The position numbers and the translations under genes were made by a program. Below the pieces are notes generated by a model that worked only from the letters and a program-made list of their open reading frames with translations, had not been told where the DNA came from and did no database searches. Below are positions 1 through 54,308 of a stretch of DNA of 64,000 bases, one piece after another; the stretch's first letter is position 1; every line of letters starts with the position of its first letter. This DNA is from Mayamaea pseudoterrestris. Taxonomy: Eukaryota; Bacillariophyta; Bacillariophyceae; Sellaphorales; Sellaphoraceae. Location of the stretch: the NCBI GenBank assembly GCA_027923505.1, contig BROI01000027.1:186001-250000 (forward strand), read 5' to 3'.

Positions 1-109
1 CATTCTCAACCAGATCCGAAAGATCTTTTCCCATACTAGCAAGTTGGTCTTGCACATTGGCGTAGGAAACGCCCAAGCAAAGGACCTTTTTGCGTGGACG
101 AGGCGCCAT
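1..109 (-). CDS. Partial 5' end of an unidentified gene
   Basis: A minus-strand frame opens at the ATG at 107-109 and stays open to the window edge, giving about 36 residues. It begins MAPRPRKKVLCLGVSYANVQ, so a short basic stretch is followed by a hydrophobic strand. That could be the first beta strand of a nucleotide-binding fold or a targeting peptide, but too little is present to name a family. The ATG lies 64 bp from the first TACGTCA site of the 42-bp repeat array, and the alcohol dehydrogenase is transcribed away on the other side, so the interval is probably a shared bidirectional promoter. Confidence 0.5.
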   Translation of the reverse strand, partial: MAPRPRKKVLCLGVSYANVQDQLASMGKDLSDLVEN

Positions 110-164: not shown

Positions 165-440
165 CAGTAAATTACGTCACGAGGCAATAGTACGAAACGA
201 GTGCCAGTGAAAACTACGTCATAAGGCAATACTATGAAACGAAAGCCAGTGAAAACTACGTCATAAGGCAATAGTACGAAACAAGTGCCAGTGTCAATTA
301 CGTCATTAGGCATTAGTACGAAACAAGTGCCAGTGTCAATTACGTCACAAGGCAATAGTGTGAAACAAGTGCCAGTGTCAATTACGTCACAAGGCAATAG
401 TGTGAAACGAGTGCCAGTGTCAATTACGTCACAATCTGCA
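165..440. repeat. 42-bp tandem array A with seven CRE-like sites
   Basis: Seven TACGTCA sites start at 173, 215, 257, 299, 341, 383 and 425, each exactly 42 bp after the last. The unit also carries GAAACGAGTGCCAGTG and AAGGCAATAGTA. The last site runs into TTACGTCACAATCTGCA (424-440), which recurs in the COX6A promoter. Because 42 is divisible by three, one frame reads through as a 14-residue peptide repeat (285-560); I regard that as a by-product. TGACGT/ACGTCA is the core of bZIP/CREB-type binding sites and of the CO2/cAMP-responsive elements known from Phaeodactylum promoters. A regulatory role is inferred from position between two divergent starts. Confidence 0.85.
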
Positions 441-566: not shown

Positions 567-1744
567 ATGGCGACAATCAAGGATGGAACTGGCACAATCA
601 TGTTGGCGGCGTTTGACACGTCGTGCGACTTGAAGAAGCTCGAGGCGGGACGCCCCAAGGTTGGATCTAACGACATTTCGATTGACATTCAGTTTTGCGG
701 CATGTGCCACAGCGATCTTCACGCTTGCAACGGTGACTGGGGTTCGAAAAAGTTTCCGATTGCTCCGGGACATGAGATCGCCGGAATTGTGAAGGATGTT
801 GGTGACAAGGTGAAAGAATTCAAGGTCGGAGACAGGGTCGGCGTTGGCTGCTTGGTGGATAGCTGTCGGAGCTGTGATTTGTGTCAGAAGGGACTCGAAA
901 ATCATTGTCCAGGCGCAGTGCAGACCTACTGCTCGGACTTTCCGGATGGAAAGGGCGCAAACATGGAGAAAGCCGTTGGATATTATACAAACGGAGGCTA
1001 CAGCACTGATATCACCGTCAGCGAGCACTTTGTGTTCCATATTCCAAAAGGTTCGTACGTTGCAGCATCATACGTTCACATGACACAAATCTTATTCTGG
1101 TCATGTATCGTTTGCAGATATGGACATGGAATATGCTGGGATCTTGCTATGTGCGGGGATTACCATGTTTTCGCCACTCAATCGTCACATTTTGGAAAGG
1201 GGAGGCGGTGAAGGGAAGCACATAGGAATCGTGGGTTTTGGCGGACTTGGTCAGATGGGTGTCAAACTTGCCAAAGCCATGGGCTGCGAGGTGACTATCT
1301 TGTCACGGAACCGTAAGAAGGAATCAGCTGCCAAAGCTTTGGGCGCAAACCTTCTCGTTCATGCTGATGAGAAAGCAATCAAGTCTGCTGAAAGGTCATT
1401 TGATCTCATTCTTGACACAGTTTCCGCCAAGCATCCAATCGGGCCACTAGCTTCCATTCTCAAGGTCGGTGGGACAATGATCTTGATTGGTGGCGTCTCA
1501 CAGCCATTCGAGATTTCGGCGCTTCAGCTGGCTTTTGGTCGCCAGGCCATCAGGATCTGCAATCGGAGGCGTTCCCGAAACGCAGCAGATGCTAGACTTT
1601 TGTGCCAAACACAAAATTGTACCGGAATACAAGGTCATTCACGCAAAAGACGCTTCAGCTCACTTTCAGGAGATGTTAGCTGGCGAAGCTGATGCCATGC
1701 GCGCCGTAATCGATATTGCAACTCTCGCAGAGTTAAAGGACTGA
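567..1744 (+). CDS. Zinc-dependent alcohol dehydrogenase, cinnamyl-alcohol-dehydrogenase type (frame change)
   Basis: NAD(P)H-dependent medium-chain alcohol dehydrogenase that interconverts aldehydes and alcohols. Exon 1 is 567-1050 and exon 2 is 1118-1744; the 67-bp intron ends TTTGCAG. Catalytic zinc motifs are CGMCHSD (Cys44, His47) and GHE (68-70). The structural zinc cysteines are 100, 103, 106 and 114, and the nucleotide-binding loop is GFGGLGQMG. The C-terminal part (GSAIGGVPETQQM and on) lies in another frame: near 1552-1556 two bases appear lost (or one gained) just before that motif. With that corrected the protein would be about 370 residues, normal for the family. The defect may be a sequence error or a recent pseudogene. 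Substrate cannot be predicted. The 42-bp array ends 127 bp before the ATG. Confidence 0.9.
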
Positions 1745-5911: not shown

Positions 5912-6654
5912 ATACACGTGATTAGAAAAGTTTTGGCAGTGCTTTGGCACAGCATCATTTTAGGCTCAAGCACGCTCTTCATCTCCACAATTTACTGTTA
6001 CAAATATTAGTTGATTGGTACAAGTAGGACAAGGGGACCTCACGGTCTGTGGCACTGCCCCGGCGCTTGCGCGTGGAAAGATGTGTTCCCTGTGCGACTG
6101 TATATCACCACAATTTGCAGTGTAGTGCTTGACTGTAGCTCTGCCTTTGGTAGTGCAGGGCCTTTCTCGATAGAATGTGGTTGGTGGTTTCTTGATAATG
6201 TACCTGAGATCTTGATGTAAAGCTACTGCTTGTAGAGTACCGATAGGGCCCAACTGTATCTCTGCCATTCTAAGTGTAGGGCTTGTTTCCATAGTCTTAT
6301 TGGTAGCTGGATGGTAGCTCCTTAGACTCCTGAGACCTCTTTCAATGCTGCTTGTGGTGTGGGGCCTGACTGTTACACTGCAGTTTTTAGTGTGGAGCCT
6401 GACGGTAGCTCTGCCTTTTGCAGTGTATGGCCTTTCACAATAAAATCTGGCTCAATTAGCTGCTAAGATAACCAGGGCCTCATGTGTACCTCTGCTGCAT
6501 GTAATGCACTGGTGGGTTTTGATGGTAGCTCTGCTATTGTAGTGTAGGGCCTGTCGATAATATTATTAATAGTACATGGTTGTTAGCCACATACAATATT
6601 ATGGTACTATACAGTTTTGTGTGGTGGCTTCAGTTGTTTTATGCATCAATGTGA
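5912..6654. repeat. Degenerate short tandem repeats
   Basis: No gene is supported. From about 6100 to 6560 a diverged motif recurs every 60-110 bp: GTAGCTCTGCCTTTGGTAGTGCAGGGCC and variants (each time 'T(A/G)GCTCTGC' followed by 'AGTGTAGGGCCTG'). Copies are near 6138, 6255, 6410, 6490 and 6530. They look like an old, heavily mutated tandem repeat bordering the main satellite block. Confidence 0.5.
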
Positions 6655-6770
6655 CATTTGGCATTCCAAAGAGTTATACACCAATCATACTGCAGTCTAC
6701 TGAGACACCAGGAGGCACTTTATCTGTAGCGCAGGCTGAATAATGATGTTGGCACCATTCTTGTGTGATT
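6655..6770. repeat. Isolated edge-type unit of the 169-bp satellite
   Basis: This stretch holds ACCAATCATACTGCAGTCTA, CTGAGACACCAG, TGTAGCGCAGGCTGAATAATG and ATGTTGGCACCATTC in the same order as the diverged units at 7,960-8,060 and 22,000-22,500. It is a partial satellite unit separated from the main array by about 1.2 kb of other repeats, so the 175-bp satellite seems to interrupt the edge of the 169-bp array. Confidence 0.65.
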
Positions 6771-7760
6771 CATGCACCAATCACACTGCATACGTGTCCC
6801 CAACGATAGCCAGAAAAGAAATCACGGAACAAGACAAGTGGGGGTAGTCGTTGAAGGCCACACACTGTAGCACCATGGAGCTGGTACTGTGTGGATGTTT
6901 GCCCTCCCAAACAACTGATGCTACACGTGAGCTGGAAATGATTATTATGCACCAATGTCACCGCATATGTGACCTTAAGAATAGCCAGAACAGAATTCAT
7001 GGAACAAGACAAGTGGGGGTAGTTGTTAAAGGCCACACACTGTAGCACCGTGTAGCTAATTACTGTGTGGATCTTTGCCCTCCCCAACAACTGATGCTAC
7101 ACGTGAACCAGAAATGATTGTTATGCACCAATCTTGCCAAATATTTGTCCTCAAGGATAGCCAGAACAGAATTCATGGAACCAGACCATGGGGGGTAGAA
7201 GGCCACACATGTAGCACCATGGAGCTGGTTACTGTGTGGATGTTTGCCCTTCTAAACAACTGATGCTACACGTGAGCTGGGAGTGATTGTTATGCACCAA
7301 TCTTGCCACATATATGTCCCCAAGCATAGCCAGAACAGAACTCACGGAACAAGACTATGTGGGGCAGTCTTTGACAGCCGCACACTGTAGCACCATGGAG
7401 CGGGTTACTGTGTGGATGTTTGCCCTTCCAAACAACTGAAGCTACACATGAGTTGGGAATGATTGATATGCACCAATCTCGCCGCAAATATGTCCCCAAG
7501 CGTAGCCAGAACAGAATTCATGGAACAAGACTATTGGGGGTAGTCATTGAAGGCCACTCATGAAGCACCGTGTAGCTGGTTACTGTGTGGATCTTTGCCC
7601 TCCCCAACAACTGATGCTACACATGAGCTGGGAGTGATTGTTATGCAACAATCTCACCGCATATGTGTCTCCAAAGATAGCTAGAACAGAATTCATGGAA
7701 CAAGACTATTGGGGGTAGTCGTTGAAGGCCACACATGTAGCACCGTGTAGCTGGTTGCAG
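6770..7760. repeat. Satellite of about 175 bp, roughly 5.7 copies
   Basis: The landmark GGCCACACACTGTAGCACC recurs near 6855, 7031, 7201, 7377, 7551 and 7728, a spacing of 170-177 bp. Each unit continues with GTTACTGTGTGGATGTTTGC, ACAACTGATGCTACACGTGA, GCACCAATCT and CAGAACAGAATTCATGGAAC. Units differ from each other by many substitutions and small indels, so the array is older than the core of the 169-bp satellite. Short open frames here are not convincing genes. Confidence 0.8.
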
Positions 7761-7764
7761 GAGG

Positions 7765-7957
7765 ATATATCTGGACAAGTCTAACAACATTACTTGGAAT
7801 ACTGCAGCTGCGACCCAGATGATGTCATGGTTGTGGTGCATACAATGGCCCAAATTACAAATGTGTTAGCTATCCGAAACACATTGCTATACTATAGGAG
7901 TATGCTCTCAGAGAGCCATCAATCACCACTCAATTACTGCAATCTCTAGCCTGCTGA
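7765..7957. repeat. Dispersed repeat, copy 1
   Basis: The segment with GTGTTAGCTATCC, GAGTATGCTCTCA, GAGCCAT and CACCACTCAATTA matches 39,595-39,745 in the same order and spacing. Alignable length is about 140 bp by eye, with roughly one difference in six. It sits exactly between the 175-bp and 169-bp satellites. It could be the end of a mobile element or a unit of another dispersed family; no terminal repeats or coding capacity are visible. Confidence 0.6.
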
Positions 7958-10900
7958 GACTCGTTACAACTTGTCACCAATTACATTGCAGTCTACTAAG
8001 ACACCAGTCAGGCATACCATCTTGTAGCGCAGACGGATTAATGATGTTGGCACCATTCTGGTGTGATTTGGGTGTCTACATGGCATGTAATATGGGCAGT
8101 TGAATGTCACGGCATCTGCGGGCTGAGACTGGTGACAAGTTGTCACCAAATACATTGCCATCCCCTGAGACACCAGCCAAGCTTACCATCTTGTAGCGCA
8201 GCCTGAATAATGATGTTGGCACCATTCTGGTGTATTTTGGGCACCTACAGGGTTTGCTGTAGGGGCGTTTGAATGTCACGGCATCTGCAGGCTGAGACTG
8301 GTGACACGATGTCACCAAATACATTTTCATCCCCTGAGACACCAGCCAAGAATACCATCTTGTAGCGCAGCCTGAATTATGATGTTGGCACCATTCTGGT
8401 GTATTTTGGGCACCTACAGGGTTTGCTGTAGGGGCGTTTGAATGTCACGGCATCTGCGGGCTGAGACTGGTGACAAGTTGTCGCCAAATACATTGCCATC
8501 CCCTGAGACACCAGCCAAGGATACCATCTTGTAGCGCAGCCTGCAAATTGATGTTGGCACCATTCTGTTGCAATTTGGGCACCTACCGGGTTTGCTGTAG
8601 GTGCGTTTGAATGTCACGGCAACTGCGGGCTGAGACTGGTGACACGTTGTCACCAAATACATTTTCATCCCCTGAGACACCAGCCAAGTATTACAATCTT
8701 GTAGCGCAGCCTGAACAATGATGTTGGCACCATTCTGGTGCAATTTGGGCACCTACAGGGTTTGCCGTAGGGGCGTTTGAATGTCACGGCATCTGCGGGC
8801 TGAGACTGGTGACAAGTTGTCACCAAATACATTGCCATCCCCTGAGACACCAGGCGGGCTGAGACTGGTGACAAGTTGTCACCAAATACATTGCCATCCC
8901 CTGAGACACCAGCCAAGCCTACCATCTTGTAGCGCAGCCTGAACAATGATGTTGGCACCATTCTGGTGCAATTTGGGCACCTACAGCGCTTGCTGTAGGG
9001 GGGTTTGAATGTCACGTCATCTGCAGGCTGAGACTGGTGACAAGTTGTCACCAAATACATTTCCATCCCCTGAGACACCAGCCAAGAATACCATCTTGTT
9101 GCGCAGCCTCAACAATGATGTTGGCACCATTCTGGTGTAATTTGGGCACCTACCGGGCTTGCTGTAGGGGCGTTTGAATGTCACGGCATCTGCGGGCTGA
9201 GACTGGTGACACGTTGTCACCAAATACATTTTCATCCCCTGAGACACCAGCCAAGTAATACAATCTTGTAGTGCAGCCTGAACAATGATGCTGTGCCTGA
9301 GCAATGTGTTGCACCATTTGGTGTAATTTGGGCACCTACAGGGTTTGCTGTAGGGGCGTTTGAATGTCACGGCATCTGCGGGCTGAGACTGGTGACAAGT
9401 TGTCACCAAATACATTGCCATCCCCTGAGACACCAGCCAAGAATACCATCTTGTAGCGCAGCCTGAACAATGATGTTGGCACCATTCTGGTGTATTTTGG
9501 GCACCTACAGGGCTTGCTGTAGGGGCGTTTGAATGTCACGGCATCTGCGGGCTGAGACTGGTGACAAGTTGTCACCAAATACATTGCCATCCCCTGAGAC
9601 ACCAGCCAAGCCTGCCATCTTGTAGCGCAGCCTGAACAATGATGTTGGCACCATTCTGGTGCAATTTGGGCACCTACAGGGCTTGCTGTAGGGGGGTTTG
9701 AATGTCACGGCATCTGCGGGCTGAGACTGGTGACACGTTGTCACCAAATACATTGCCATCCCCTGAGACACCAGCCAAGAATACCATCTTGTAGCGCAGC
9801 CTGAACAATGATGTTGGCACCATTCTGGTGTATTTTGGGCACCTACAGGGTTTGCTGTAGGGGCGTTTGAATGTCACGGCATCTGCGGGCTGAGACTGGT
9901 GACAAGTTGTCACCAAATACATTGCCATCCCCTGAGACACCAGCCAAGGATACCATCTTGTAGCACAGCCTGAATAATGATGTTGGCACCATTCTGTTGC
10001 AATTTGGGCACCTACAGGGCCTGCTGTAGGGGGTTTGAATGTCACGGCATCTGCGGGCTGAGACTGGTGACAAGTTGTCACCAAATACATTGCCATCCCC
10101 TGAGACACAAGCCAAGAATACAATCTTGTAGCGCAGCCTGAACAATGATGTTGACACCATTCTGGTGTATTTTGGGCACCTACAGGGTTTGCTGTAGGGG
10201 CGTTTGAATGTCACGGCATCTGCGGGCTGAGACTGGTGACAAGTTGTCACCAAATACATTGCCATCCCCTGAGACACCAGCCAAGGATACCATCTTGTAG
10301 CGCAGCCTGAATAATGATGTTGGCACCATTCTAGTGTATTTTGGGCACCTACAGGGTTTGCTGTAGGGGCGTTTGAATGTCGCCGCATCTGCGGGCTGAG
10401 ACTGGTGACACGTTGTCATCAAATACATTGCCATCCCCTGAGACACCAGCCAAGCCTACCATCTTGTAGCGCAGCCTGAACAATGATGTTGACACCATTC
10501 TGGTGCAATTTGGGCACCTACAGGGTTTGCTGTAGGGGCGTTTGAATGTCACGGCATCTGCAGGCTGAGACTGGTGACAAGTTGTCACCAAATACATTGC
10601 CATCCCCTGAGACACCAGCCAAGCCTACCATCTTGTAGCGCAGCCTCAACAATGATGTTGGCACCATTCTGGTGTATTTTGGGCACCTACAGGGTTTGCT
10701 GTAGGGGCGTTTGAATGTCACGGCATCTGCGGGCTGAGACTGGTGACACGTTGTCACCAAATACATTTTCATCCCCTGAGACACCAGCCAAGTAATACAA
10801 TCTTGTAGTGCAGCCTGAACAATGATGTTGACACCATTCTGGTGTATTTTGGGCACCTACAGGGTTTGCTGTAGGGGCGTTTGAATGTCACGGCATCTGC

Positions 10901-11042
10901 GGGCTGAGACTGGTGACAAGTTGTCACCAAATACATTGCCATCCCCTGAGACACCAGCCAAGCCTGCCATCTTGTAGCGCAGCCTGAACAATGATGTTGG
11001 CACCATTCTGGTGCAATTTGGGCACCTACAGGGCTTGCTGTA

Positions 11043-14000
11043 GGGGGGTTTGAATGTCACAGCATCTGCGGGCTGAGACTGGTGACACGTTGTCACCAAA
11101 TACATTGCCATCCCCTGAGACACCAGCCAAGAATACCATCTTGTAGCGCAGCCTGAACAATGATGTTGGCACCATTCTGGTGTATTTTGGGCACCTACAG
11201 GGTTTGCTGTAGGGGCGTTTGAATGTCACGGCATCTGCGGGCTGAGACTGGTGACAAGTTGTCACCAAATACATTGCCATCCCCTGAGACACCAGCCAAG
11301 GATACCATCTTGTAGCACAGCCTGAATAATGATGTTGGCACCATTCTGTTGCAATTTGGGCACCTACAGGGCCTGCTGTAGGGGGTTTGAATGTCACGGC
11401 ATCTGCGGGCTGAGACTGGTGACAAGTTGTCACCAAATACATTGCCATCCCCTGAGACACCAGCCAAGCCTACCATCTTGTAGCGCAGCCTGAACAATGA
11501 TGTTGGCACCATTCTGGTGTATTTTGGGCACCTACAGGGCTTGCTGTAGGGGCGTTTGAATGTCACGGCATCTGCGGGCTGAGACTGGTGACACGTTGTC
11601 ACCAAATACATTGCCATCCCCTGAGACACCAGCCAAGTAATACAATCTTGTACTGCAGCCTGAACAATGATGTTGGCACCATTCTGGTGTATTTTGGGCA
11701 CCTACAGGGCTTGCTGTAGGGGCGTTTGAATGTCACGGCATCTGCGGGCTGAGACTGGTGACAAGTTGTCACCAAATACATTGCCATCCCCTGAGACACC
11801 AGCCAAGCCTACCATCTTGTAGCGCAGCCTGAACAATGATGTTGGCACCATTCTGGTGTAATTTGGGCACCTACAGGGCTTGCTGTAGGGGGGTTTGAAT
11901 GTCACAGCATCTGCGGGCTGAGACTGGTGACACGTTGTCACCAAATACATTGCCATCCCCTGAGACACCAGCCAAGAATACCATCTTGTAGCGCAGCCTG
12001 AACAATGATGTTGGCACCATTCTGGTGTATTTTGGGCACCTACAGGGTTTGCTGTAGGGGCGTTTGAATGTCACGGCATCTGCGGGCTGAGACTGGTGAC
12101 AAGTTGTCACCAAATACATTGCCATCCCCTGAGACACCAGCCAAGGATACCATCTTGTAGCACAGCCTGAATAATGATGTTGGCACCATTCTGTTGCAAT
12201 TTGGGCACCTACAGGGCCTGCTGTAGGGGGTTTGAATGTCACGGCATCTGCGGGCTGAGACTGGTGACAAGTTGTCACCAAATACATTGCCATCCCCTGA
12301 GACACCAGCCAAGCCTACCATCTTGTAGCGCAGCCTGAACAATGATGTTGGCACCATTCTGGTGTAATTTGGGCACCTACAGGGCTTGCTGTAGGGGCGT
12401 TTGAATGTCACGGCATCTGCGGGCTGAGACTGGTGACAAGTTGTCACCAAATACATTGCCATCCCCTGATACACCAGCCAAGCCTACCATCTTGTAGCGC
12501 AGCCTGAACAATGATGTTGGCACCATTCTGGTGCAATTTGGGCACCTACAGGGCTTGCTGTAGGGGGGTTTGAATGTCACGTCATCTGCGGGCTGAGACT
12601 GGTGACAAGTTGTCACCAAATACATTTCCATCCCCTGAGACACCAGCCAAGAATACCATCTTGTTGCGCAGCCTCAACAATGATGTTGGCACCAAACTGG
12701 TGTAATTTGGGCACCTACCGGGCTTGCTGTAGGGGCGTTTGAATGTCACGGCATCTGCGGGCTGAGACTGGTGACACGTTGTCACCAAATACATTGCCAT
12801 CCCCTGAGACACCAGCCAAGCCTACCATCTTGTAGCGCAGCCTGAACAATGATGTTGGCACCATTCTGGTGTATTTTGGGCACCTACAGGGCTTGCTGTA
12901 GGGGCGTTTGAATGTCACGGCATCTGCAGGCTGAGACTGGTGACAAGTTGTCACCAAATACATTGCCATCCCCTGAGACACCAGCCAAGCCTGCCATCTT
13001 GTAGCGCAGCCTGAACAATGATGTTGGCACCATTCTGGTGCAATTTGGGCACCTACAGGGCTTGCTGTAGGGGGGTTTGAATGTCACGGCATCTGCGGGC
13101 TGAGACTGGTGACAAGTTGTCACCAAATACATTGCCATCCCCTGAGACACCAGCCAAGAATACCATCTTGTAGCGCAGCCTGAACAATGATGTTGGCACC
13201 ATTCTGGTGTAATTTGGGCACCTACAGGGCTTGCTGTAGGGGCGTTTGAATGTCACGGCATCTGCGGGCTGAGACTGGTGACAAGTTGTCACCAAATACA
13301 TTGCCATCCCCTGAGACACCAGCCAAGGATACCATCTTGTAGCACAGCCTGAATAATGATGTGGGGGTTTGAATGTCACAGCATCTGCGGGCTGAGACTG
13401 GTGACACGTTGTCACCAAATACATTGCCATCCCCTGAGACACCAGCCAAGAATACCATCTTGTAGCGCAGCCTGAACAATGATGTTGGCACCATTCTGGT
13501 GTATTTTGGGCACCTACAGGGTTTGCTGTAGGGGCGTTTGAATGTCACGGCATCTGCGGGCTGAGACTGGTGACAAGTTGTCACCAAATACATTGCCATC
13601 CCCTGAGACACCAGCCAAGGATACCATCTTGTAGCACAGCCTGAATAATGATGTTGGCACCATTCTGTTGCAATTTGGGCACCTACAGGGCCTGCTGTAG
13701 GGGGTTTGAATGTCACGGCATCTGCGGGCTGAGACTGGTGACAAGTTGTCACCAAATACATTGCCATCCCCTGAGACACCAGCCAAGCCTACCATCTTGT
13801 AGCGCAGCCTGAACAATGATGTTGGCACCATTCTGGTGTATTTTGGGCACCTACAGGGCTTGCTGTAGGGGCGTTTGAATGTCACGGCATCTGCGGGCTG
13901 AGACTGGTGACACGTTGTCACCAAATACATTGCCATCCCCTGAGACACCAGCCAAGTAATACAATCTTGTACTGCAGCCTGAACAATGATGTTGGCACCA

Positions 14001-15680
14001 TTCTGGTGTATTTTGGGCACCTACAGGGCTTGCTGTAGGGGCGTTTGAATGTCACGGCATCTGCGGGCTGAGACTGGTGACAAGTTGTCACCAAATACAT
14101 TGCCATCCCCTGAGACACCAGCCAAGCCTACCATCTTGTAGCGCAGCCTGAACAATGATGTTGGCACCATTCTGGTGTAATTTGGGCACCTACAGGGCTT
14201 GCTGTAGGGGGGTTTGAATGTCACAGCATCTGCGGGCTGAGACTGGTGACACGTTGTCACCAAATACATTGCCATCCCCTGAGACACCAGCCAAGAATAC
14301 CATCTTGTAGCGCAGCCTGAACAATGATGTTGGCACCATTCTGGTGTATTTTGGGCACCTACAGGGTTTGCTGTAGGGGCGTTTGAATGTCACGGCATCT
14401 GCGGGCTGAGACTGGTGACAAGTTGTCACCAAATACATTGCCATCCCCTGAGACACCAGCCAAGGATACCATCTTGTAGCACAGCCTGAATAATGATGTT
14501 GGCACCATTCTGTTGCAATTTGGGCACCTACAGGGCCTGCTGTAGGGGGTTTGAATGTCACGGCATCTGCGGGCTGAGACTGGTGACAAGTTGTCACCAA
14601 ATACATTGCCATCCCCTGAGACACCAGCCAAGCCTACCATCTTGTAGCGCAGCCTGAACAATGATGTTGGCACCATTCTGGTGTAATTTGGGCACCTACA
14701 GGGCTTGCTGTAGGGGCGTTTGAATGTCACGGCATCTGCGGGCTGAGACTGGTGACAAGTTGTCACCAAATACATTGCCATCCCCTGATACACCAGCCAA
14801 GCCTACCATCTTGTAGCGCAGCCTGAACAATGATGTTGGCACCATTCTGGTGCAATTTGGGCACCTACAGGGCTTGCTGTAGGGGGGTTTGAATGTCACG
14901 TCATCTGCGGGCTGAGACTGGTGACAAGTTGTCACCAAATACATTTCCATCCCCTGAGACACCAGCCAAGAATACCATCTTGTTGCGCAGCCTCAACAAT
15001 GATGTTGGCACCAAACTGGTGTAATTTGGGCACCTACCGGGCTTGCTGTAGGGGCGTTTGAATGTCACGGCATCTGCGGGCTGAGACTGGTGACACGTTG
15101 TCACCAAATACATTGCCATCCCCTGAGACACCAGCCAAGCCTACCATCTTGTAGCGCAGCCTGAACAATGATGTTGGCACCATTCTGGTGTATTTTGGGC
15201 ACCTACAGGGCTTGCTGTAGGGGCGTTTGAATGTCACGGCATCTGCAGGCTGAGACTGGTGACAAGTTGTCACCAAATACATTGCCATCCCCTGAGACAC
15301 CAGCCAAGCCTGCCATCTTGTAGCGCAGCCTGAACAATGATGTTGGCACCATTCTGGTGCAATTTGGGCACCTACAGGGCTTGCTGTAGGGGGGTTTGAA
15401 TGTCACGGCATCTGCGGGCTGAGACTGGTGACAAGTTGTCACCAAATACATTGCCATCCCCTGAGACACCAGCCAAGAATACCATCTTGTAGCGCAGCCT
15501 GAACAATGATGTTGGCACCATTCTGGTGTAATTTGGGCACCTACAGGGCTTGCTGTAGGGGCGTTTGAATGTCACGGCATCTGCGGGCTGAGACTGGTGA
15601 CAAGTTGTCACCAAATACATTGCCATCCCCTGAGACACCAGCCAAGGATACCATCTTGTAGCACAGCCTGAATAATGATG
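11043..15680. repeat. Higher-order duplication of 2,319 bp inside the satellite
   Basis: The blocks 11,043-13,361 and 13,362-15,680 are direct tandem copies. Frames at 11,195, 11,599, 11,702, 12,377, 12,582, 12,715 and 12,884 recur with identical translations exactly 2,319 bp later. The junction at 13,361/13,362 cuts a monomer short, joining AATGATGT directly to GGGGGTTTGAATG. The duplication therefore joined out-of-register monomers (2,319 is not a multiple of 169) and is recent. Confidence 0.85.
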
Positions 15681-18554
15681 TTGGCACCATTCTGTTGCAA
15701 TTTGGGCACCTACAGGGCTTGCTGTAGGGGGTTTGAATGTCACGGCATCTGCGGGCTGAGACTGGTGACAAGTTGTCACCAAATACATTGCCATCCCCTG
15801 AGACACCAGCCAAGCCTACCATCTTGTAGCGCAGCCTGAATAATGATGTTGGCACCATTCTGGTGTAATTTGGGCACCTACAGGGCTTGCTGTAGGGGCG
15901 TTTGAATGTCACGGCATCTGCGGGCTGAGACTGGTGACAAGTTGTCACCAAATACATTGCCATCCCCTGAGACACCAGCCAAGCCTACCATCTTGTAGCG
16001 CAGCCTGAACAATGATGTTGGCACCATTCTGGTGCAATTTGGGCACCTACAGGTCTTGCTGTAGGGGTGTTTGAATGTCACGGCATCTGCGGGCTGAGAC
16101 AGGTGACAAGTTGTCACCAAATACATTGCCATCCCCTGAGACACCAGCCAAGCTTACCATCTTGTAGCGCAGCCTGAAAATGATGTTGTCACCATTTCTG
16201 GTGTGATTTGGGCACCTACAGGGCTTGCTGTAGGGGCGTTTGAATGTCACGGCATCTGCGGGCTGAGACTGGTGACACGTTGTCACCAAATACATTTTCA
16301 TCCCCTGAGACACCAGCCAAGTAATACAATCTTGTAGCGCAGCCTCAACAATGATGTTGGCACCATTCTGGTGTATTTTGGGCACCTACAGGGCTTGCTG
16401 TAGGGGTGTTTGAATGTCACGGCATCTGCAGGCTGAGACTGGTGACAAGTTGTCACCAAATACATTGCCATCCCCTGAGACACCAGCCAAGCCTACCATC
16501 TTGTAGCGCAGCCTGAATAATGATGTTGGCACCATTCTGGTGCAATTTGGGCACCTACAGGGCTTGCTGTAGGGGCGTTTGAATGTCACGGCATCTGCGG
16601 GCTGAGACTGGTGACAAGTTGTCACCAAATACATTGCCATCCCCTGAGACACCAGCCAAGCCTACCATCTTGTAGCGCAGCCTGAACAATGATGTTGGCA
16701 CCATTCTGGTGTATTTTGGGCACCTACAGGGCTTGCTGTAGGGGCGTTTGAATGTCACGGCATCTGCGGGCTGAGACTGGTGACAAGTTGTCACCAAATA
16801 CATTGCCATCCCCTGAGACACCAGCCAAGCCTACCATCTTGTAGCGCAGCCTGAATAATGATGTTGGCACCATTCTGGTGTATTTTGGGCACCTACAGGG
16901 CTTGCTGTAGGGGCGTTTGAATGTCACGGCATCTGCGGGCTGAGACTGGTGACAAGTTGTCACCAAATACATTGCCATCCCCTGAGACACCAGCCAAGCC
17001 TACCATCCTGTAGCGCAACCTCAACACTGATGTTGGCACCATTCTGGTGTATTTTGGGCACCTACCGGGTTAGCTGTAGGGGCGTTTGAATGTCATGGCA
17101 TCTGCAGGCTGAGACTGGTGACAAGTTGTCACCAAATACATTGCCATCCCCTGAGACACCAGCCAGGCATACCATCTTGTAGCGCAGACGGATTAATGAT
17201 GTTGGCACCATTCTGGTGTAATTTGGGCACCTACAGGGCCTGCTGTAGGTGTGTTTGAATGTCATGACATCTGCGGGCTGAGACTGGTGACAAGTTGTCA
17301 CCAAATACATTGCCATCCCCTGAGACACCAACCAAGCCTACCATCCTGTAGCGCAGCCTGAATAATGATGTTGGCACCATTCTGGTGTATTTTGGGTACC
17401 TACAGGGCTTGCTGTAGGGGCGTTTGAATGTCACGGCATCTGCGGGCTGAGACTGGTGACAAGTTGTCACCAAATACATTGCCATCCCCTGAGACACCAG
17501 CCAAGCCTACCATCTTGTAGCGCAGCCTGAATAATGATGTTGGCACCATTCTGGTGTAATTTGGGCACCTACAGGGCTTGCTGTAGGGGGGTTGAATGTC
17601 ACGGCATCTGCGGGCTGAGACTGGTGACAAGTTGTCACCAAATACATTGCCATCCCCTGAGACACCAGCCAAGCTTACCATGTTGTGTCACAGCCGGAAT
17701 ATTGATGTTGGCACCAATCTGGTGTATTTTGGGCACCTACCGGGCTTGCTGTAGGGGCAATTGGATGTCACGGCATCTGCGGGCTGAGACTGGTGACAAG
17801 TTGTCACCAAATACATTACCATCCCCTGAGACACCAGCCAAGCTTACCATCTTGTAGCGCAGCCTGAATAATGATGTTGGCACCCTTCTAGTGTAATTTG
17901 GGCACCTACAGGGCTTGCTGTAGAGGCGTTTGAATCTCATGGCATCTGCGGGCTGAGACTGGTGACACGTTGTCACCAAATACACTGCCATCCCCTGATA
18001 CACCAGCCAAGCCTACCATCTTGTAGCGCAGCCTGAACAATGATGTTGGCACCATTCTGGTGCAATTTGGGCACCTACAGGGCTTGCTGTAGGGGGGTTT
18101 GAATGTCACGGCATCTGCGGGCTGAGACTGGTGACAAGTTGTCACCAAATACATTGCCATCCCCTGAGACACCAGCCAAGCCTACCATCTTGTAGCGCAG
18201 CCTGAATAATGATGTTGGCACCATTCTGGTGTAATTTGGGCACCTACAGGGCTTGCTGTAGGGGCGTTTGAATGTCACGGCATCTGTGGGCTGAGACTGG
18301 TGACAAGTTGTCACCAAATACATTGCCATCCCCTGAGACACCAGCCAAGCCTACAATCTTGTAGCGCAGCCTCACCAATAATGTTGGCACCATACTGGTG
18401 TATTTTGGGCACCTACAGGGCTTGTTGTAGGGGCGTTTGAATGTCATGGCATCTGCGGGCTGAGACTGGTGACAAGTTGTCACCAAATACAATGCCATCC
18501 CCTGAGACACCAGCCAACAATGATGTCGGCACCATACTGGTGTATTTTGGGCAC

Positions 18555-20240
18555 CTACAGGGCTTGTTGTAGGGGCGTTTGAATGTCATGGCATCTGCGG
18601 GCTGAGACTGGTGACAAGTTGTCACCAAATACATTGCCATCCCCTGAGACACCAGCCAAGCCTACCATCTTGTAGCGCAGCCTGAACAATGATGTTGGCA
18701 CCATTCTGGTGCAATTTGGGCACCTACAGGGTTTGCTGTAGGGGCGTTTGAATGTCCTGGCATCTGCGGGCTGAGACTGGTGACAAGTTGTCACCAAATA
18801 CATTGCCATCCACTGAGACACCAGCCAAGCCTACCATCTTGTAGCGCAGCCTCAACAATGATGTTGGCGCCATTCTGTTGCAATTTGGGCACCTACCGGG
18901 TTTGCTGTAGGGGCGTTTGAATGTCACGGCATCTGCGGGCTGAGACTGGTGACACGTTGTCACCAAATACATTTTCATCCCCTGAGACACCAGCCAAGCC
19001 TACAATCTTGTTGCGCAGCCTCCCCAATGATGTTGGCACCATACTGGTGTATTTTGGGCACCTACAGGGCTTGTTGTAGGGGCGTTTGAATGTCATGGCA
19101 TCTGCGGGCTGAGACTGGTGACAAGTTGTCACCAAATACATTGCCATCCCCTGAGACGCCAGCCAAGAATACAATCTTTTAGCGCAGCCTGAACAATGAT
19201 GTTGGCACCATACTGGTGTATTTTGGGCACCTACAGGGCTTGTTGTAGGGGCGTTTGAATGTCATGGCATCTGCGGGCTGAGACTGGTGACAAGTTGTCA
19301 CCAAATACATTGCCATCCCCTGAGACACCAGCCAAGCCTACCATCTTGTAGCGCAGCCTGAGCAATGATGTTGGCACCATTCTGGTGCAATTTGGGCACC
19401 TACAGGGTTTGCTGTAGGGGCGTTTGAATGTCCTGGCATCTGCGGGCTGAGACTGGTGACAAGTTGTCACCAAATACATTGCCATCCACTGAGACACCAG
19501 CCAAGCCTACCATCTTGTAGCGCAGCCTCAACAATGATGTTGGCGCCATTCTGTTGCAATTTGGGCACCTACCGGGTTTGCTGTAGGGGCGTTTGAATGT
19601 CACGGCATCTGCGGGCTGAGACTGGTGACACGTTGTCACCAAATACATTTTCATCCCCTGAGACACCAGCCAAGCCTACAATCTTGTTGCGCAGCCTCCC
19701 CAATGATGTTGGCACCATACTGGTGTATTTTGGGCACCTACAGGGCTTGTTGTAGGGGCTTTTGAATGTCATGGCATCTGCGGGCTGAGACTGGTGACAA
19801 GTTGTCACCAAATACATTGCCATCCCCTGAGACACCAGCCAAGAATACAATCTTGTAGCGCAGCCTGAACAATGATGTTGGCACCATACTGGTGTATTTT
19901 GGGCACCTACAGGGCTTGTTGTAGGGGCGTTTGAATGTCATGGCATCTGCGGGCTGAGACTGGTGACAAGTTGTCACCAAATACATTGCCATCCCCTGAG
20001 ACACCAGCCAAGCCTACCATCTTGTAGCGCAGCCTGAGCAATGATGTTGGCACCATTCTGGTGCAATTTGGGCACCTACAGGGTTTGCTGTAGGGGCGTT
20101 TGAATGTCCTGGCATCTGCGGGCTGAGACTGGTGACAAGTTGTCACCAAATACATTGCCATCCCCTGAGACACCAGCCAAGCCTACCATCTTGTAGCGCA
20201 GCCTGAACAATGATGTTGGCACCATTCTGGTGTATTTTGG
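18555..20240. repeat. Four-monomer (676-bp) higher-order repeat
   Basis: Monomers starting at 18,555, 18,724 and 18,893 recur at 19,231, 19,400 and 19,569, and the first again at 19,907, each 676 bp (4 x 169) apart. They share diagnostic variants such as TGTCCTGGCATC, GTTGGCGCCATTCTGTTGC and CATACTGGTG. This is a second, register-preserving expansion independent of the 2,319-bp one. Confidence 0.75.
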
Positions 20241-22560
20241 GAACCTACAGGGTTTGCTGTAGGGGCGTTTGAATGTCACGGCATCTGCGGGCTGAGACTG
20301 GTGACACGTTGTCACCAAATACATTTTCATCCCCTGAGACACCAGCCAAGTAATACAATCTTGTAGTGCAGCCTGAACAATGATGTTGACACCATTCTGG
20401 TGTATTTTGGGCACCTACAGGGTTTGCTGTAGGGGCGTTTGAATGTCACGGCATCTGCAGGCTGAGACTGGTGACAAGTTGTCACCAAATACATTGCCAT
20501 CCCCTTATACACCAGCCAAGCCTACCATCTTATAGCGCAGCCTGAACAATGACGTTGGCACCATTCTGGTGCAATTTGGGCACCTAGAGGGCTTGCTGTA
20601 GGGGGGTTTGAATGTCAGGTCATCTGCGGGCTGAGACTGGTGACAAGTTGTCACCAAATACATTGCCATCCCCTGAGACACCAGCCAAGCCTACCATCCT
20701 GTAGCGCAGCCTGAATAATGATGTTGGCACCATTCTGGTGTGATTTGGGTGTCTACATGGCATGTAATATGGGCGTTTGAATGTCACGGCATCTGCGGGC
20801 TGAGACTGGTGACAAGTTGTCACCAAATACATTGCCATCCCCTGAGACACCAGCCAAGCTTACCATCTTGTAGCGCAGGCTGAGTAATGATGTTGGCACC
20901 ATTCTGGTGTAAATTGGGCACCTACAGGGCTTGCTGTAGGGGCGTTTGAATGACACGGCGTCTGCGGGCTGAGACTGGTGACAAGTTGTCACCAAATACA
21001 TTGCCATCCCCTGAGACACTATGCAAGCCTACCATCTTGTAGCGCAGCCTGAATATTGATGTTGGCACCATTCTAGTGTAATTTGGGCACCTACAGGGCT
21101 TGCTGTAGGGGCGTTTGAATGTCACGGCATCTGCGGGCTGAGACTGGTGACAAGTTGTCACCAAATACATTGCCATCCCCTGAGACACCAGCCAAGCTTT
21201 CCATCTTGTAGAGCAGCCGGAATAATGATGTTGGCACCATTCTGGTGTAATTTGGGCACCTACAGGGCTTGCTGTAGGTGCGTTTGAATGTCACGGCATC
21301 TGCGGGCTGAGACTGGTGACAAGTTGTCACCAAATACATTACCATCCCCTGAGACACCAGCCAAGCCTATCATCTTGTAGCGTAGCCTGAATTATGATGT
21401 TGGCACCATTCTGGTTAATTTTGGGCACCTACAGGGCTTGCTGTAGGGGCGTTTGAATGTCACAGCATCTGCGGGCTGAGACTGGTGACAAGTTGTCACC
21501 AAATACATTGCCATCCCCTGAGACACCAGCCAAGCCTACCATCTAGTAGCGCAGCCTGAACAATGATATTGGCACCATTCTGGTGTAATTTGGGCACCTA
21601 CAGGGCTTGCTGTAGGGGGGTTTGAATGTCACAGCATCTGCGGGCTGAGACTGGTGACAAGTTGTCACCAAATACATTGCCATCCCCTTAGACACCAGCC
21701 AAGCTTACCATCTTGTAGCGCAGACGGATTAATGATGTTGGCACCATTCTTGTGTAATTTGGGCACCTACCGGGCTTGCTGTAGAGGCAATTAAATGTCA
21801 CGGCATCTGTGGGCTAAGACTGGTGACAAGTTCTCACCAGTCACATTGCAGTCTACTTGGGCACCCAACAGGTATACCACCTTGTAGACCAAATGGATTT
21901 ATGATGTTGGTACCATTCTGGTGTGAAATGGGTGTGTACATGGCATTTTATATGGGCAATTGAATGTCGAGGCATCTGTGGGGTGAGATTGGTGACAACT
22001 TGTCACCAATCACATTGCAGTCTACTGAGACACCAGCCAGGCATACCATCTTGTAGCGCAGACTGAACAATGATGTTGGCACCATTCTTGTGAAATTTAA
22101 GCACCTATCGGGCTTGCTGTAGGGGGGTTAGAATGTTACGGCATCTGCGGGCTGAGACTGGTGACAAGTTGTCACCAAATACATTGCCATCCCCTGAGAC
22201 ACCAGCCAAGCCTACCATCCTGTAGCGCAGCCTGAAGCATAATGCTGGCACCATTCTGGTGTGAATTGGGTGTATACATGGCATGATATATGGGCAATTG
22301 ATTGTCACGGCATCTGCAGGCTGAGACTGGTGACAACTTGTCACCAATCACATTGCAGTCTGCTGAGACACCAGCCAGGCATACCATTTTATAGCGCAGA
22401 CTGTATAATGATGTTGGCACCATGCTGGTGTGATTTATACATGGCTTGTTATAAGGCATGGCAGCTGCTGGCTGAGACTGGTGACAAGTTATCACCAATC
22501 ACATTGCAGTCATTGAGACACCAACCAGTCGCATATTCTTGTAGCGCACCTGTAAGTGTG

Positions 22561-26870: not shown

Positions 26871-26920
26871 CAGGATCGTTCGTCGTCTGCTCACTCGATG
26901 TTGGCGCGCCGCGAAGCTAT

Positions 26921-27103
26921 TACCTTATGACGTAGTTTTCACTGGCACTCGTTTCGTACTATTGCCTTTGTGACGTAGTTTTCACTGGCACTCGTTTCAC
27001 ACTATTGCCTTGTGACGTAGTTATCACTGGCACTCGTTTCGTAGTATTGCCTGATGACGTAGTTATCACTGGCACTCGTTTCATACTATTGCCTCGTGAC
27101 GCA
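26921..27103. repeat. 42-bp tandem array B with five CRE-like sites
   Basis: TGACGTA or TGACGCA cores start at 26,928, 26,971, 27,013, 27,055 and 27,097, spaced 43, 42, 42 and 42 bp. Between them lies TTTTCACTGGCACTCGTTTC plus TACTATTGCC. The unit is the reverse complement of array A and in the same orientation as array C. The array ends 157 bp before the carrier's first ATG, so it probably lies in its promoter. Confidence 0.85.
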
Positions 27104-27260: not shown

Positions 27261-28348
27261 ATGAGTTCCGCCGAGGGTGAGTTAGTACCTGGGAGAGTTA
27301 ATGTGAAGAGAATGTGCATGCAATGCTTGAGACATGCAGGAGGCAGGAGGCGGACTCGCCATCATCGACTGCTCGACTGCGAGCTCTTGCAGTGTAACTT
27401 TCCTTGACTCGTGCTTGCTTCTCGACAGCCGTCTCTTTGCTTCACTCACATGCAACCTTACTTTATTCTTTAGTCATCATGGGTTTTGCACCTGGAGCAG
27501 TAGGAGGCTTTTTCAATGTCTTTGTTGGCCATCCATTAGACTTGGTCAAGACGAGACAGCAGGTTGGTGGAGCGTCCATTGCTGCAACAGCAAATGCTTC
27601 TTACAGAACAAATACCGCAACCCTTCAACATGGCTCGACAAAGACCATGCTCCGATCCATTTTCGCGCAGCAAGGAGTCACTGGTTTGTACGCCGGCGTG
27701 AGTGCGCCGCTACTTGCCGTCGTGCCAGCCTTTGCCATTGTCTTTTCAACGAATGACTGCGTCAAGAACATGCTGGCAGATAGAGGAAATGCTTCTCAAC
27801 TATCAACCTCACAATTTGCGATTGCCGGAGGAATATCTGGAGTGCCACTTGCTATAGTGTTGGGGCCATTGGAGCGAATTAAGTGCGAGTTTCAAGTCCA
27901 TGGGGCTAGCAAATACTCCAACAGCATCCGCGCCTGCGCTCACGAAACCTACAAGCAAGGAACCTTGTTTCGGGGAACGGCGCTTACTATGGCCCGGGAT
28001 GTTCCGGGTAATGCAGTTTACTTTGCTTCCTACGAAGTATTGCGACGAATGTTTTGCCAATTGCAAGGGATTGACTCACCGAGCATGGCGGCCACCGTGC
28101 TTGCAGGCGGGCTAGCCGGCATGGCCAACTGGACAATTGCACTTCCAATGGATGTCATCAAAAGCAGGTTCCAAGTGGGAGCTTATAGTAGCTGCTGGCA
28201 GGTAGTTACGGATCTTATTCGGCACGAAGGACCATCAGCACTCTTTCGAGGCCTCTCGCCGGCACTGCTGCGAGCGTTCCCAGCAAATGCCGCCTGTTTC
28301 CTTGGAGCCGAGACTGTTCGAACCATGCTGACAAAGGCTGATCGATGA
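27261..28348 (+). CDS. SLC25A20: Mitochondrial carrier, carnitine/acylcarnitine type
   Basis: Inner-mitochondrial-membrane antiporter of the SLC25 family; closest in pattern to carnitine/acylcarnitine translocases feeding beta-oxidation. The best model is exon 1 at 27,261-27,276 (MSSAE), a 197-bp GTGAGT...TTTAG intron, and exon 2 at 27,474-28,348, giving 296 residues. A simpler alternative starts at the ATG at 27,479. Three PxD/ExxK/R motifs are visible: HPLDLVKTRQQ, GPLERIKCEFQ and LPMDVIKSRFQ. Acylcarnitine-carrier signatures include RDVPGNAVYFASYE and RAFPANAACFLG. Basic amino-acid carriers (SLC25A15/A29) are the main alternative. Confidence 0.85.
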
Positions 28349-52044: not shown

Positions 52045-52704
52045 CTACCTTCGAACGCCGCCGAAGAAACCAGCAGCAAAGCCAGAACCTGCTGGCAAAT
52101 TAAACTCTAGTACTTTGAGCATTTTTCGATACGCGGCCGATGCATCATGTTGGTCGATACGTCCGTCTTGATTCAAATCCATATACTTTTCAATCGTTTC
52201 CTGAATCTTGGTATGATTCACTTCAATGTATCCGTTATAAGCCAGAGTCTGCAAGGTAATGAATCCAAGTCCAAGTACAGTTGCAGTAGCTCTTCCGATT
52301 TGTCGTGCGGCAATGCCGGCGCAATATCCACTCACAAAGCCATAGCTCAGCTGCGACGGAATGCCAGTGTCAATGGCTCCTTGAATCTGCGTTCCCACCG
52401 TCTTGGCCAAGGCATCCATGACGTTTCGATCGGCCAGACCTTTCGTCGACTTGTCCAAAATGTTTTGCCAGCTATTGTTTCCGTCCTTGTCGCCGCCGCC
52501 TTGGTCGCAGTGCACCGTGGAAGCGTTCCATAATGTTGACGAAGTCGAAACGCCGCTCAGTTGCAGCAGCGAAAAGCCAGTCGTTGCCACTGTCGCAGCC
52601 TTGACGAGAGATTGACGAGATATGCGAGTTGCAGTGGCGGAGATCATCATTGGAGCAACCGAGGGTGAAGAATTCAGATGTCCTTTCGTGGATTGTGGAT
52701 CCAT
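52045..52704 (-). CDS. FUN14-domain protein with an EF-hand
   Basis: The likeliest starts are the ATG at 52,704 (219 residues) or the ATG pair at 52,650/52,647. The N-terminus (MISATATRISRQSLVKAATV) is a basic amphipathic helix fitting mitochondrial targeting. A FUN14-type membrane domain follows: LSYGFVSGYCAGIAARQIGR and ATVLGLGFITLQTLAYNGYI. FUN14 proteins sit in the outer mitochondrial membrane and some act in mitophagy. An EF-hand loop DLNQDGRIDQHD comes next; it has Asp rather than Glu at position 12, which is allowed but less common. The FUN14 plus EF-hand order suggests calcium control. Array C lies 37 bp from the ATG. Confidence 0.75.
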   Translation of the reverse strand: MDPQSTKGHLNSSPSVAPMMISATATRISRQSLVKAATVATTGFSLLQLSGVSTSSTLWNASTVHCDQGGGDKDGNNSWQNILDKSTKGLADRNVMDALAKTVGTQIQGAIDTGIPSQLSYGFVSGYCAGIAARQIGRATATVLGLGFITLQTLAYNGYIEVNHTKIQETIEKYMDLNQDGRIDQHDASAAYRKMLKVLEFNLPAGSGFAAGFFGGVRR

Positions 52705-52740: not shown

Positions 52741-52940
52741 ACGTCACTGGCACTCGTTTCGTACTATTGCCTTCATGACGCAGTTTTCACTGGCACTCGT
52801 TTCACGATATTGCCTTTGTGACGCAGTTTTCACTGGCACTCGTTTCATACTATTGCCTTAGGCTTCGTTTTCACTGGCACTCGTTTCATAATATTGCCTT
52901 GTGACGTAGTTTCCACTGGCACTCGTTTCGTAATATTGCC
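52741..52940. repeat. 42-bp tandem array C with CRE-like sites
   Basis: TGACGCA at 52,776 and 52,819, a degenerate site near 52,861, and TGACGTA at 52,902, with ACGTCACTGGCACTCGTTTC marking the left edge at 52,741. Spacings are 41-43 bp. The unit sequence (TTTTCACTGGCACTCGTTTC, then TACTATTGCC) is nearly the same as in array B. It lies between the divergent FUN14 and BTB genes, ending about 146 bp before the BTB start codon. Confidence 0.83.
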
Positions 52941-53085
52941 CTTTGAAGACAACCATGCGACACGGCGCGACGGATCGCCGACCAACATTTTCTTCATCGC
53001 AGCTTTGTTGAGAACAATACCAAATCCTTCGCACTACAGACCTTCCTTGCTCGTATTATAATTTGCAACGCATACTGTATCTATC

Positions 53086-54308
53086 ATGGACACGGAAGAG
53101 GATGATATGACTGCTGAAAGCGAAGGATTTGAACGAAGTCAGCCAAGTACGTGTCGTGGGAGTGATGGAAGGAAGTTTGGTAAGACTGTATGACAGCGAC
53201 GAATGATTGCGCCAAAGCCGAAGCGAGGAGTGGCATGCTGTGCAATGTCTTACACACTCAACGGTGCTTGATCTCATTAATTGGCAGCCTTTCGATTTGA
53301 ATATCTAAGTAACGAAGAATTATACAAGATGTTTTTTGCACCAAAAAAGACGAGTCTGGAGAAGTTAAACGAAAAACTCGAACACAAGCGTGCACAGCCT
53401 TCCATCGCGATCCGCCGGCAACCTGAGCAGCTCATTCCTTTGAGTAAAAACCAAAACACGCGTGAATTGGACGTACTATCGTTAAACGTTGGAGGAACAA
53501 GTTTCGACGTACTGCGCGGGACATTGACGTCGATTCCGAGCTTGTTGGCAACAAAGTTCAGTGGCGAACGGGACGAGAGCCTGCCCAAGGATTCAGCCGG
53601 TCGATTCTTTCTGGATGAAGATTACGAGTTATTTATAGCCCTCGTGAACTACATGCGTGATCACAATCGGGTGCAATCATCTGGGTCTAGTTGCCCAAGT
53701 GCACCCTCTTTTGACGATGGAGGGAAATCGCTGCGTTTCAATCGCATGGTCGATGCAATCAGTCTGTCACAGCACTTTTGGCCTTTTGATTTAGTTTTAT
53801 ACGATAGTCATCATAAGCTTACTATGGCTTATGATGAATCAATGCACGCTCGCATTTCTGCGCCTTGCAAAGTTCCTGCTATATTCTGCAGCGAAAATGT
53901 TCGGATCGCCGACGAGTGCATTCATTCGAGGTGCAAGTTCATCTCAGCGAGGACTGTGATGGATTTAATATAGGCTGGCTCCAATATAGTCTTGACAAGG
54001 CCACTGTGGAGGAGTTGAAAAGCGGAAGAGTGACCTATCTCGACACAAAGAGCTGGTCGATTGAAACGTACAAGAAGCCCACGGTTTCTTTGGATGTTGC
54101 TGGCATTGTATCCTCTCCTGTCGATTTCACCATCAGATGCGTCGATCGTGGAGCAGAATGGTTTGTGAATGGTTGGTTGGTGGCCGAAACAAAAGATGAT
54201 GCACGCACTGGGACGGGCATGCAGCCAATGATCGTGGTGAGAGGCAAAAGTAATTTTCGAATTCTTCGTATGGATATGGAATATGAAATATTTTACCTGG
54301 CCAACTAG
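53086..54308 (+). CDS. BTB/T1-domain protein (frame change)
   Basis: Exon 1 is 53,086-53,146 (MDTEEDDMTAESEGFERSQP), then a 141-bp GTACGT...GGCAG intron and exon 2 from 53,288. The T1-type BTB domain (about residues 72-135) contains LSLNVGGTSFDVLRGTLTSI, as in KCTD and Kv-channel tetramerisation domains, suggesting a cullin-3 adaptor. The rest is probably a beta-sandwich (SFEVQVHLSEDCDGFNIGWL, EWFVNGWLVAE), SPRY-like by eye. The two halves lie in different frames: one base appears lost between about 53,870 and 53,930. Corrected, the protein would be about 360 residues. The upstream frame alone ends at 53,973. Confidence 0.7.

Follow-up and report, generated by a model that had tools for sequence, protein, structure and literature searches.

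The alcohol dehydrogenase locus

The window (the whole stretch of 64,000 nucleotides analysed here, positions 186001-250000 of contig C27 in the 30.6-Mb, 41-contig genome of Mayamaea pseudoterrestris) begins with two genes in head-to-head orientation, and the interval between them holds a tandem array of 42-bp units:

1..109, minus strand: start of the left-hand divergent gene (ATG on the complement at 109), which continues leftwards beyond the window (locus L001) and has no Pfam family
170..434, plus strand: array 1, six full 42-bp units and a seventh, terminal TACGTCA, between the minus-strand gene and the alcohol dehydrogenase gene
173..179, then starts at 215, 257, 299, 341, 383 and 425, plus strand: seven TACGTCA (TGACGTA) half-sites of array 1, read from the sequence
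194..209, plus strand: first copy in array 1 of GAAACGAGTGCCAGTG, which is the best-conserved block in the unit
567..1692, plus strand: alcohol dehydrogenase (ADH) gene, ORFs 567-1211 (Pfam ADH_N) and 1120-1692 (Pfam ADH_zinc_N)

Tandem Repeats Finder delineated array 1 at 170-434 with a period of 42, 6.3 copies and 89% matches. The seven TACGTCA sites, spaced by exactly 42 bp, that the first-pass annotation noticed were borne out, extending from 173 to 431, and so were the divergent flanks, with a minus-strand ATG at 109 and the plus-strand ADH start at 567; the array, said to form almost the whole interval, covers ~265 of the 457 bp that separate these ATGs, so that this statement is too strong. 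The repeated TACGTCA site is likewise present, but it is only one part of what repeats, namely the whole 42-bp unit. A 37-bp pattern made of TRCGTCA and most of the remaining unit, with up to 3 mismatches allowed, gave 10 matches in the window (6 inside array 1) and 0 in 100 shuffles; six of the seven TACGTCA sites of array 1 begin such a match. When folded as DNA, array 1 was mildly better than its shuffles (z -1.9; 7/200 as good). A structured RNA was rejected as a candidate, there being no Rfam match at gathering score and no tRNA in the window. The two ORFs of the ADH gene are apparently two exons. The second (1120-1743) seems to be out of the expected frame near its end, at ~1540, where an additional intron, a change towards a pseudogene or an error in the sequence seems to be involved.

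The array is not peculiar to ADH: the window contains three arrays, and 120-160 are estimated genome-wide. The other two lie as follows.

26917..27103, minus strand: array 2, four 42-bp units, upstream of the mitochondrial carrier gene
27479..28348, plus strand: mitochondrial carrier gene, MPSEU_001003000 of Mayamaea pseudoterrestris
52045..52647, minus strand: FUN14-family gene, left partner of array 3
52744..52950, minus strand: array 3, five 42-bp units, in the divergent interval between the FUN14 and BTB genes
53329..53973, plus strand: BTB/POZ-domain gene, right partner of array 3

Array 2 was classed as tandem, the closest called gene leftwards being a plus-strand TPR gene. Repeats of other kinds were also observed in the window. 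A satellite of ~15 kb with a unit of ~169-175 bp covers 6772-22436, where the hexamer model described below called no gene, and a 427-bp segment occurs twice in tandem at 38395-39249 with 100% matches, overlapping two predicted ORFs; this pair is either very recent or an assembly artefact.

Size and sampling of the array family

Across the genome, 933 units lie within 3 mismatches of a 34-bp pattern, compared to 0 for a reversed-pattern control. Perfect units number 280, of which 203 carry TACGTCA and 77 carry TGCGTCA. The total of 120-160 arrays is an estimate bracketed by these counts, with the 933 units implying ~163 arrays and the 280 perfect units ~121, and grouping by eye among the places listed (100 of 106 in one case) gave ~134. 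Strongly decayed arrays may be missed, because the arrays were located through units that were mostly perfect. Their distribution is uneven: among the places listed, the first 2.25 Mb of C1 had no match and C7 had no perfect unit.

The sample comprises 48 arrays, the 3 of the window (C27) and 45 on C1-C6, C8, C9, C13 and C23, these 45 taken with flanks of ~0.8 to 5 kb. Contigs C10-C39 are thus represented only by L005 (C13), L008 (C23) and the three window arrays (C27). Loci L001, L003 and L004, which are repeats of other loci, do not enter the counts; L007, a copy of L006, stands outside the Pfam list and inside the orientation tally. Sampled arrays have 3-24 units each, with 4-9 units in 44/48 and a median length of 311 bp. 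In the 350 kb read, units outside arrays were not found at up to 8 mismatches. Tandem units in the ~10-100 bp class at many unlinked loci, as seen here, are the structure of a dispersed minisatellite family. Arrays with units in both orientations were observed at L023 and L031 (2/48 sampled) and at G000:C18:629692-629812; the edge, spacing and strand counts do not include the inverted L023 and L031. A viral or prokaryotic origin was considered and rejected, a 28-bp piece of the module having no exact match in the viral_contigs or genome_contigs collections, and the ADH gene had no match to phages by megablast.

A rigid composite module

The unit is a rigid composite of the form AGGCAATA-N4-GAAACGAGTGCCAGTG-N5-TRCGTCA, with flexible linkers of 2-3 nt joining one unit to the next. 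Among 364 copies of the 16-mer GAAACGAGTGCCAGTG, 327 have a recognisable half-site, and in 324 of these it lies at exactly +21 relative to the 16-mer; AGGCAATA keeps a fixed position relative to GAAACGAGTGCCAGTG in 310/312. The linker from the half-site to the next AGGC measures 2 nt in 196 cases and 3 nt in 27. All four bases occur at linker positions 8, 9 and 18, and of the block positions (position 2 excepted) 27/30 are 93-100% constant in the 316 modules, which had been selected as recognisable. The same qualification applies to the half-site core, constant at 97-98% in modules with a recognisable half-site and at 93-94% without that filter. The 16-bp GAAACGAGTGCCAGTG, which the first-pass annotation did not mention, is conserved at least as well as the half-site.

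Unit spacings in single-orientation arrays (n=303) are 42 bp in 248 cases, 43 in 36 and 41 in 5, with 14 scattered others. The exact 42-bp step had been read as about four helical turns that place all sites on one face of the DNA. No sign of such phasing beyond copying was seen, since the 14/303 spacings outside 41-43 do not, by eye, fall at whole turns, and helical phasing as a constraint was rejected in view of the spread over 42, 43, 41 and these others.

Past the last full unit, half-site bases persist in 34-40 of the 46 single-orientation arrays, the match declining to 16 arrays at position 11 (~11 by chance), and left ends are variable. A stricter extension scatters the right ends, placing them at positions 8-11 in 21/46 and at positions 1-11 in 32/46, so that arrays tend to share a right end but do not always do so. 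Taken together, the fixed spacing within the module, the variable linkers and the array ends suggest a natural repeat running from AGGCAATA through to TRCGTCA. Rare private substitutions per position are only a little scarcer in the core (0.94) and half-site (1.00) than in linkers (1.44) or AGGCAATA (2.00), and they give weak support for present selection. An imperfect dyad, GGCA-N15-TGCC at unit positions 11-14 and 30-33, was noticed in the fold of array 1; it might suit a dimeric protein.

The heptamer TRCGTCA corresponds to the TGACG(T/C) half-site of bZIP type. In 349 units the half-site takes the form TACGTCA (TGACGTA) in 170 and TGCGTCA (TGACGCA) in 93, and its single strongly variable position, A or G, corresponds to the T/C alternative in the TGACGT/C bZIP motif. 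Two common subtypes are recognised by the preceding bases, with TCAAT before TACGTCA in 131 units and AAAAC before TGCGTCA in 78 or TACGTCA in 47. Half-sites lie on the unit strand in 296/302 cases and on the other strand in 6 (single-orientation arrays). According to the accessible part of PMC11142338, TGACGT/C is the reported target motif of PtbZIP11 in Phaeodactylum, and the promoters of PtCA1, PtCA2 and PtBST1 carry such motifs on both strands, those of PtBST1 within about 300 bp upstream of the start codon. The earlier description of the sites as CRE-like stands as far as the core fits this PtbZIP11 motif; the palindromic CRE is not conserved, the GACGTCA required for the full TGACGTCA being found in only 4/349 units. 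Moreover, the TGACGT core is also the motif of the blue-light aureochromes, as stated in the available text of PMC4721966, and because the core is shared in this way it does not point to CO2.

Position relative to genes

Genes were called with a hexamer ORF model trained on 86 long ORFs from the same sequences, and weaker coding segments (score under 20) were excluded from orientation classing. Among the 42 arrays classed of 48 examined, 33 are in divergent intervals, 9 in tandem and 0 in convergent ones. Random non-coding positions, drawn from the non-coding parts of the window and of twenty 10-kb stretches with the arrays excluded, were 37.7% divergent, 46% tandem and 16.3% convergent. The divergent excess (33/42 against 0.377 expected, binomial P = 8e-8) and the convergent deficit (0/42 against 0.163 expected, P = 6e-4) both depend, for the null as for the gene calls, on that self-trained caller and on the 42/48 arrays that could be classed. 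Counting the duplicate L006/L007 once leaves 32/41 divergent (P = 2e-7), and the divergent share is similar in the two halves of the sample, 15/19 on C1-C3 and 12/16 on C4-C9. The excess is weaker among the arrays with Pfam families in both neighbours (n=16), where 10 are divergent and 6 tandem.

A predicted 5' end lies within 500 bp of 41/42 classed arrays by hand count, L014 being the exception, compared to 0.489 of random non-coding positions. It had been held against a promoter role in advance that genome-wide copies might be spread without regard to genes; since the sampled copies concentrate at 5' ends and in divergent intervals, they are not scattered in that manner.

Divergent intervals with an array are longer than array-free ones (P = 0.002). 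With the array subtracted, the medians are 474.5 bp (with, n=16) and 493.5 bp (without, n=20; P = 0.51). In array-free intervals ACGTCA occurs 8 times in 11.0 kb of divergent, 22 times in 21.1 kb of tandem and 2 times in 10.6 kb of convergent sequence. Both of the former exceed the convergent intervals, and in the absence of enrichment of divergent over tandem ones ACGTCA is no divergent-specific promoter word.

Neighbouring genes

There are 83 neighbour ORFs in all, of which 70 (64 of them 5'-facing) were scanned separately against Pfam, five were scanned with the window proteins, and eight of 58-160 aa, five of which lie 3' of their arrays' genes, stood outside the scan. Families at E up to 1e-5 were assigned to 45/70, leaving 25/70 without family. 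The neighbours are mixed housekeeping genes, with families including tubulin, ribosomal L1 and L19, Gar1, La, TELO2, aconitase, cullin and MAT1, among others. No pathway common to the gene partners was seen among the Pfam-scanned neighbours, and a functional theme was not supported by these mixed families. Carbonic anhydrase and bestrophin families were absent from the scanned neighbours, 25/70 of which have no assigned family.

Dispersal and turnover

With arrays masked, the fetched loci share no flanking sequence at E 1e-6, save for L006/L007 and for other tandem repeats. Accordingly, the dispersed entity is the array itself, and a larger transposable element is not supported. The exceptions are of two kinds. 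L006/L007 belong to a single segmental duplication, 3 kb long or more, in which two units at one end are identical and the inner units diverge more than the flanks (by eye). Tandem repeats outside the family are common to the flanks of L017/L022 and of L018/L027; within L017, at 6515-9991, tandem-looking repeats with steps of ~180 bp were observed. Pairs of array loci with like unit patterns 10-19 kb apart were noted at G000:C8:37759/49832, C9:782137-801389, C12:651976/670685 and C15:347705/359608, and these are apparently recent segmental duplications or duplicated assembly.

Arrays cluster along the chromosome. For 60 arrays on 11 contigs of known length (65 minus five recent duplicates), the median distance to the nearest neighbour is 43 kb, compared to 92 kb in simulation (0.5 percentile 46 kb), and 26/60 lie <30 kb from a neighbour when 12 are simulated on average (largest simulated 30). 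Some arrays are spaced ~20-26 kb apart. Near neighbours are also more alike, at 0.0925 for the 19 pairs within 60 kb compared to 0.112 for 1017 pairs from different contigs (P = 0.003; the pairs are not independent). Arrays >60 kb apart on the same contig show no extra likeness.

Discussion

Based on the collective evidence, the arrays are best understood as a dispersed family of homotypic cis-regulatory arrays belonging to mainly bidirectional promoters, at which a bZIP-type factor, together with others, would open the interval. This reading is given a probability of about one half. The module would consist of AGGCAATA, GAAACGAGTGCCAGTG and the TGACG(T/C) half-site, present three or more times in tandem upstream of mostly head-to-head genes. 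A bZIP-type factor would bind TRCGTCA and one or more other putative factors would bind AGGCAATA and GAAACGAGTGCCAGTG, and the factors so assembled could keep the common interval open and active for both genes. Selection may then maintain the arrays. Copies would reach further divergent promoters in the form of short arrays, in many cases close by on the chromosome. After their spread they would change through gain, loss and conversion of units; for the route of the movement, DNA circles, gap repair or another process can be envisaged. Against this reading count the partners in which no common pathway is seen, the weak result for private substitutions and the lack of single modules outside arrays in the 350 kb read. 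Because the motif stands at many back-to-back promoters, a copied two-way switch is a likelier look for it than a one-gene sensor. A bolder version, doubtful in our assessment, would regard the array as a mobile, self-amplifying bidirectional promoter with a three-block binding module, spreading ready-made into head-to-head intervals, its copy number setting both outputs and around a hundred unrelated gene pairs coming under one regulator.

A repeat that favours open promoters for its own sake is a close rival of the regulatory reading, and we regard it as possible at less than even odds. The arrays would be a neutral or selfish minisatellite that inserts or survives only in nucleosome-free 5' intervals. 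Divergent promoters would give it the broadest open target, and conservation of the blocks would reflect a young common ancestor sequence and a few old variants spread by conversion. Much of what was observed agrees with it: the addition of ~300 bp to otherwise ordinary divergent intervals, the chromosomal clustering and likeness of near neighbours, partners in which no common pathway is seen, inverted arrays (L023, L031), the inner units of L006/L007 that by eye differ more than their flanks, and private substitutions that hardly differ between blocks and linkers. The module itself is harder to place in such an account, for indels are nearly limited to one linker, three linker positions reach all four bases when block positions do not, and array ends tend towards the module boundary. 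Moreover, pure insertion into open 5' sides predicts more tandem arrays than the 9 seen against 33 divergent ones. A selfish repeat thus covers most of the facts, and accounts less readily for the rigid module and for the excess of divergent over tandem positions.

The remaining alternatives carry little weight. A boundary or insulator between divergent genes, or a replication origin in the open interval, would agree with the location between divergent genes and with some of the ~20-26 kb spacings; the estimated 120-160 arrays are, however, too few and too unevenly spread for a general role of either kind, which is accordingly improbable. The first-pass annotation had offered an amplified CO2/cAMP sensor promoter of the ADH gene. 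Array 1 is indeed upstream of ADH, and TGACGT/C is a PtbZIP11 target in Phaeodactylum in the accessible part of PMC11142338, but the same 42-bp unit occurs at many other loci, whose partners are mixed in the cases examined, the scanned neighbours included neither carbonic anhydrase nor bestrophin families, and the motifs are one-stranded (296/302), unlike those described there for PtCA1, PtCA2 and PtBST1. Considering also the aureochromes' share in the core, the sensor proposal has very little in its favour. Even less credible is a coding array. The 42 bp equal 14 codons, and an open minus-strand frame of 164 aa (2-493) crosses array 1 and extends into the left gene; yet 49/303 unit spacings are not divisible by three (43 bp in 36 cases), and the most variable positions lack a third-base pattern.

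If the arrays are functional, the estimated 120-160 natural copies with 3-24 repeats would show how the number and spacing of sites set two-way transcription, and they would provide a test of one regulator capturing unrelated genes. If they are selfish, they represent a minisatellite with strong preference for divergent promoters and a clue to the sites at which repeats of this sort insert. In biotechnology, the arrays are candidates for use in diatoms as compact promoters that work in two directions.

Comparison with known systems

Clusters of homotypic sites, minisatellites in promoters and sites of TGACGT type are all known kinds. The open-licence papers searched gave no description of composite modules dispersed as arrays and nearly confined to divergent promoters. 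Homotypic clusters of transcription-factor sites place several copies of a motif near transcription starts, and the Mayamaea arrays differ from them in having a long rigid unit copied near-verbatim across unrelated, mainly divergent promoters. Dispersed minisatellites and promoter VNTRs are short tandem arrays with unit turnover and variable copy number; by contrast, the arrays described here are nearly confined to 5', mainly divergent intervals, with convergent positions at 0/42. The aureochrome site has the same bZIP core, and the composite unit and the array are absent from its description in the available text of PMC4721966. The CO2/cAMP elements of P. tricornutum (PtCA1, PtBST1), as far as described in the accessible part of PMC11142338, resemble the arrays in presenting TGACGT/C half-sites near start codons of a pennate diatom, but they comprise few motifs on both strands, whereas in Mayamaea the composite 42-bp unit is tandemly repeated on a single strand at numerous unrelated gene pairs.
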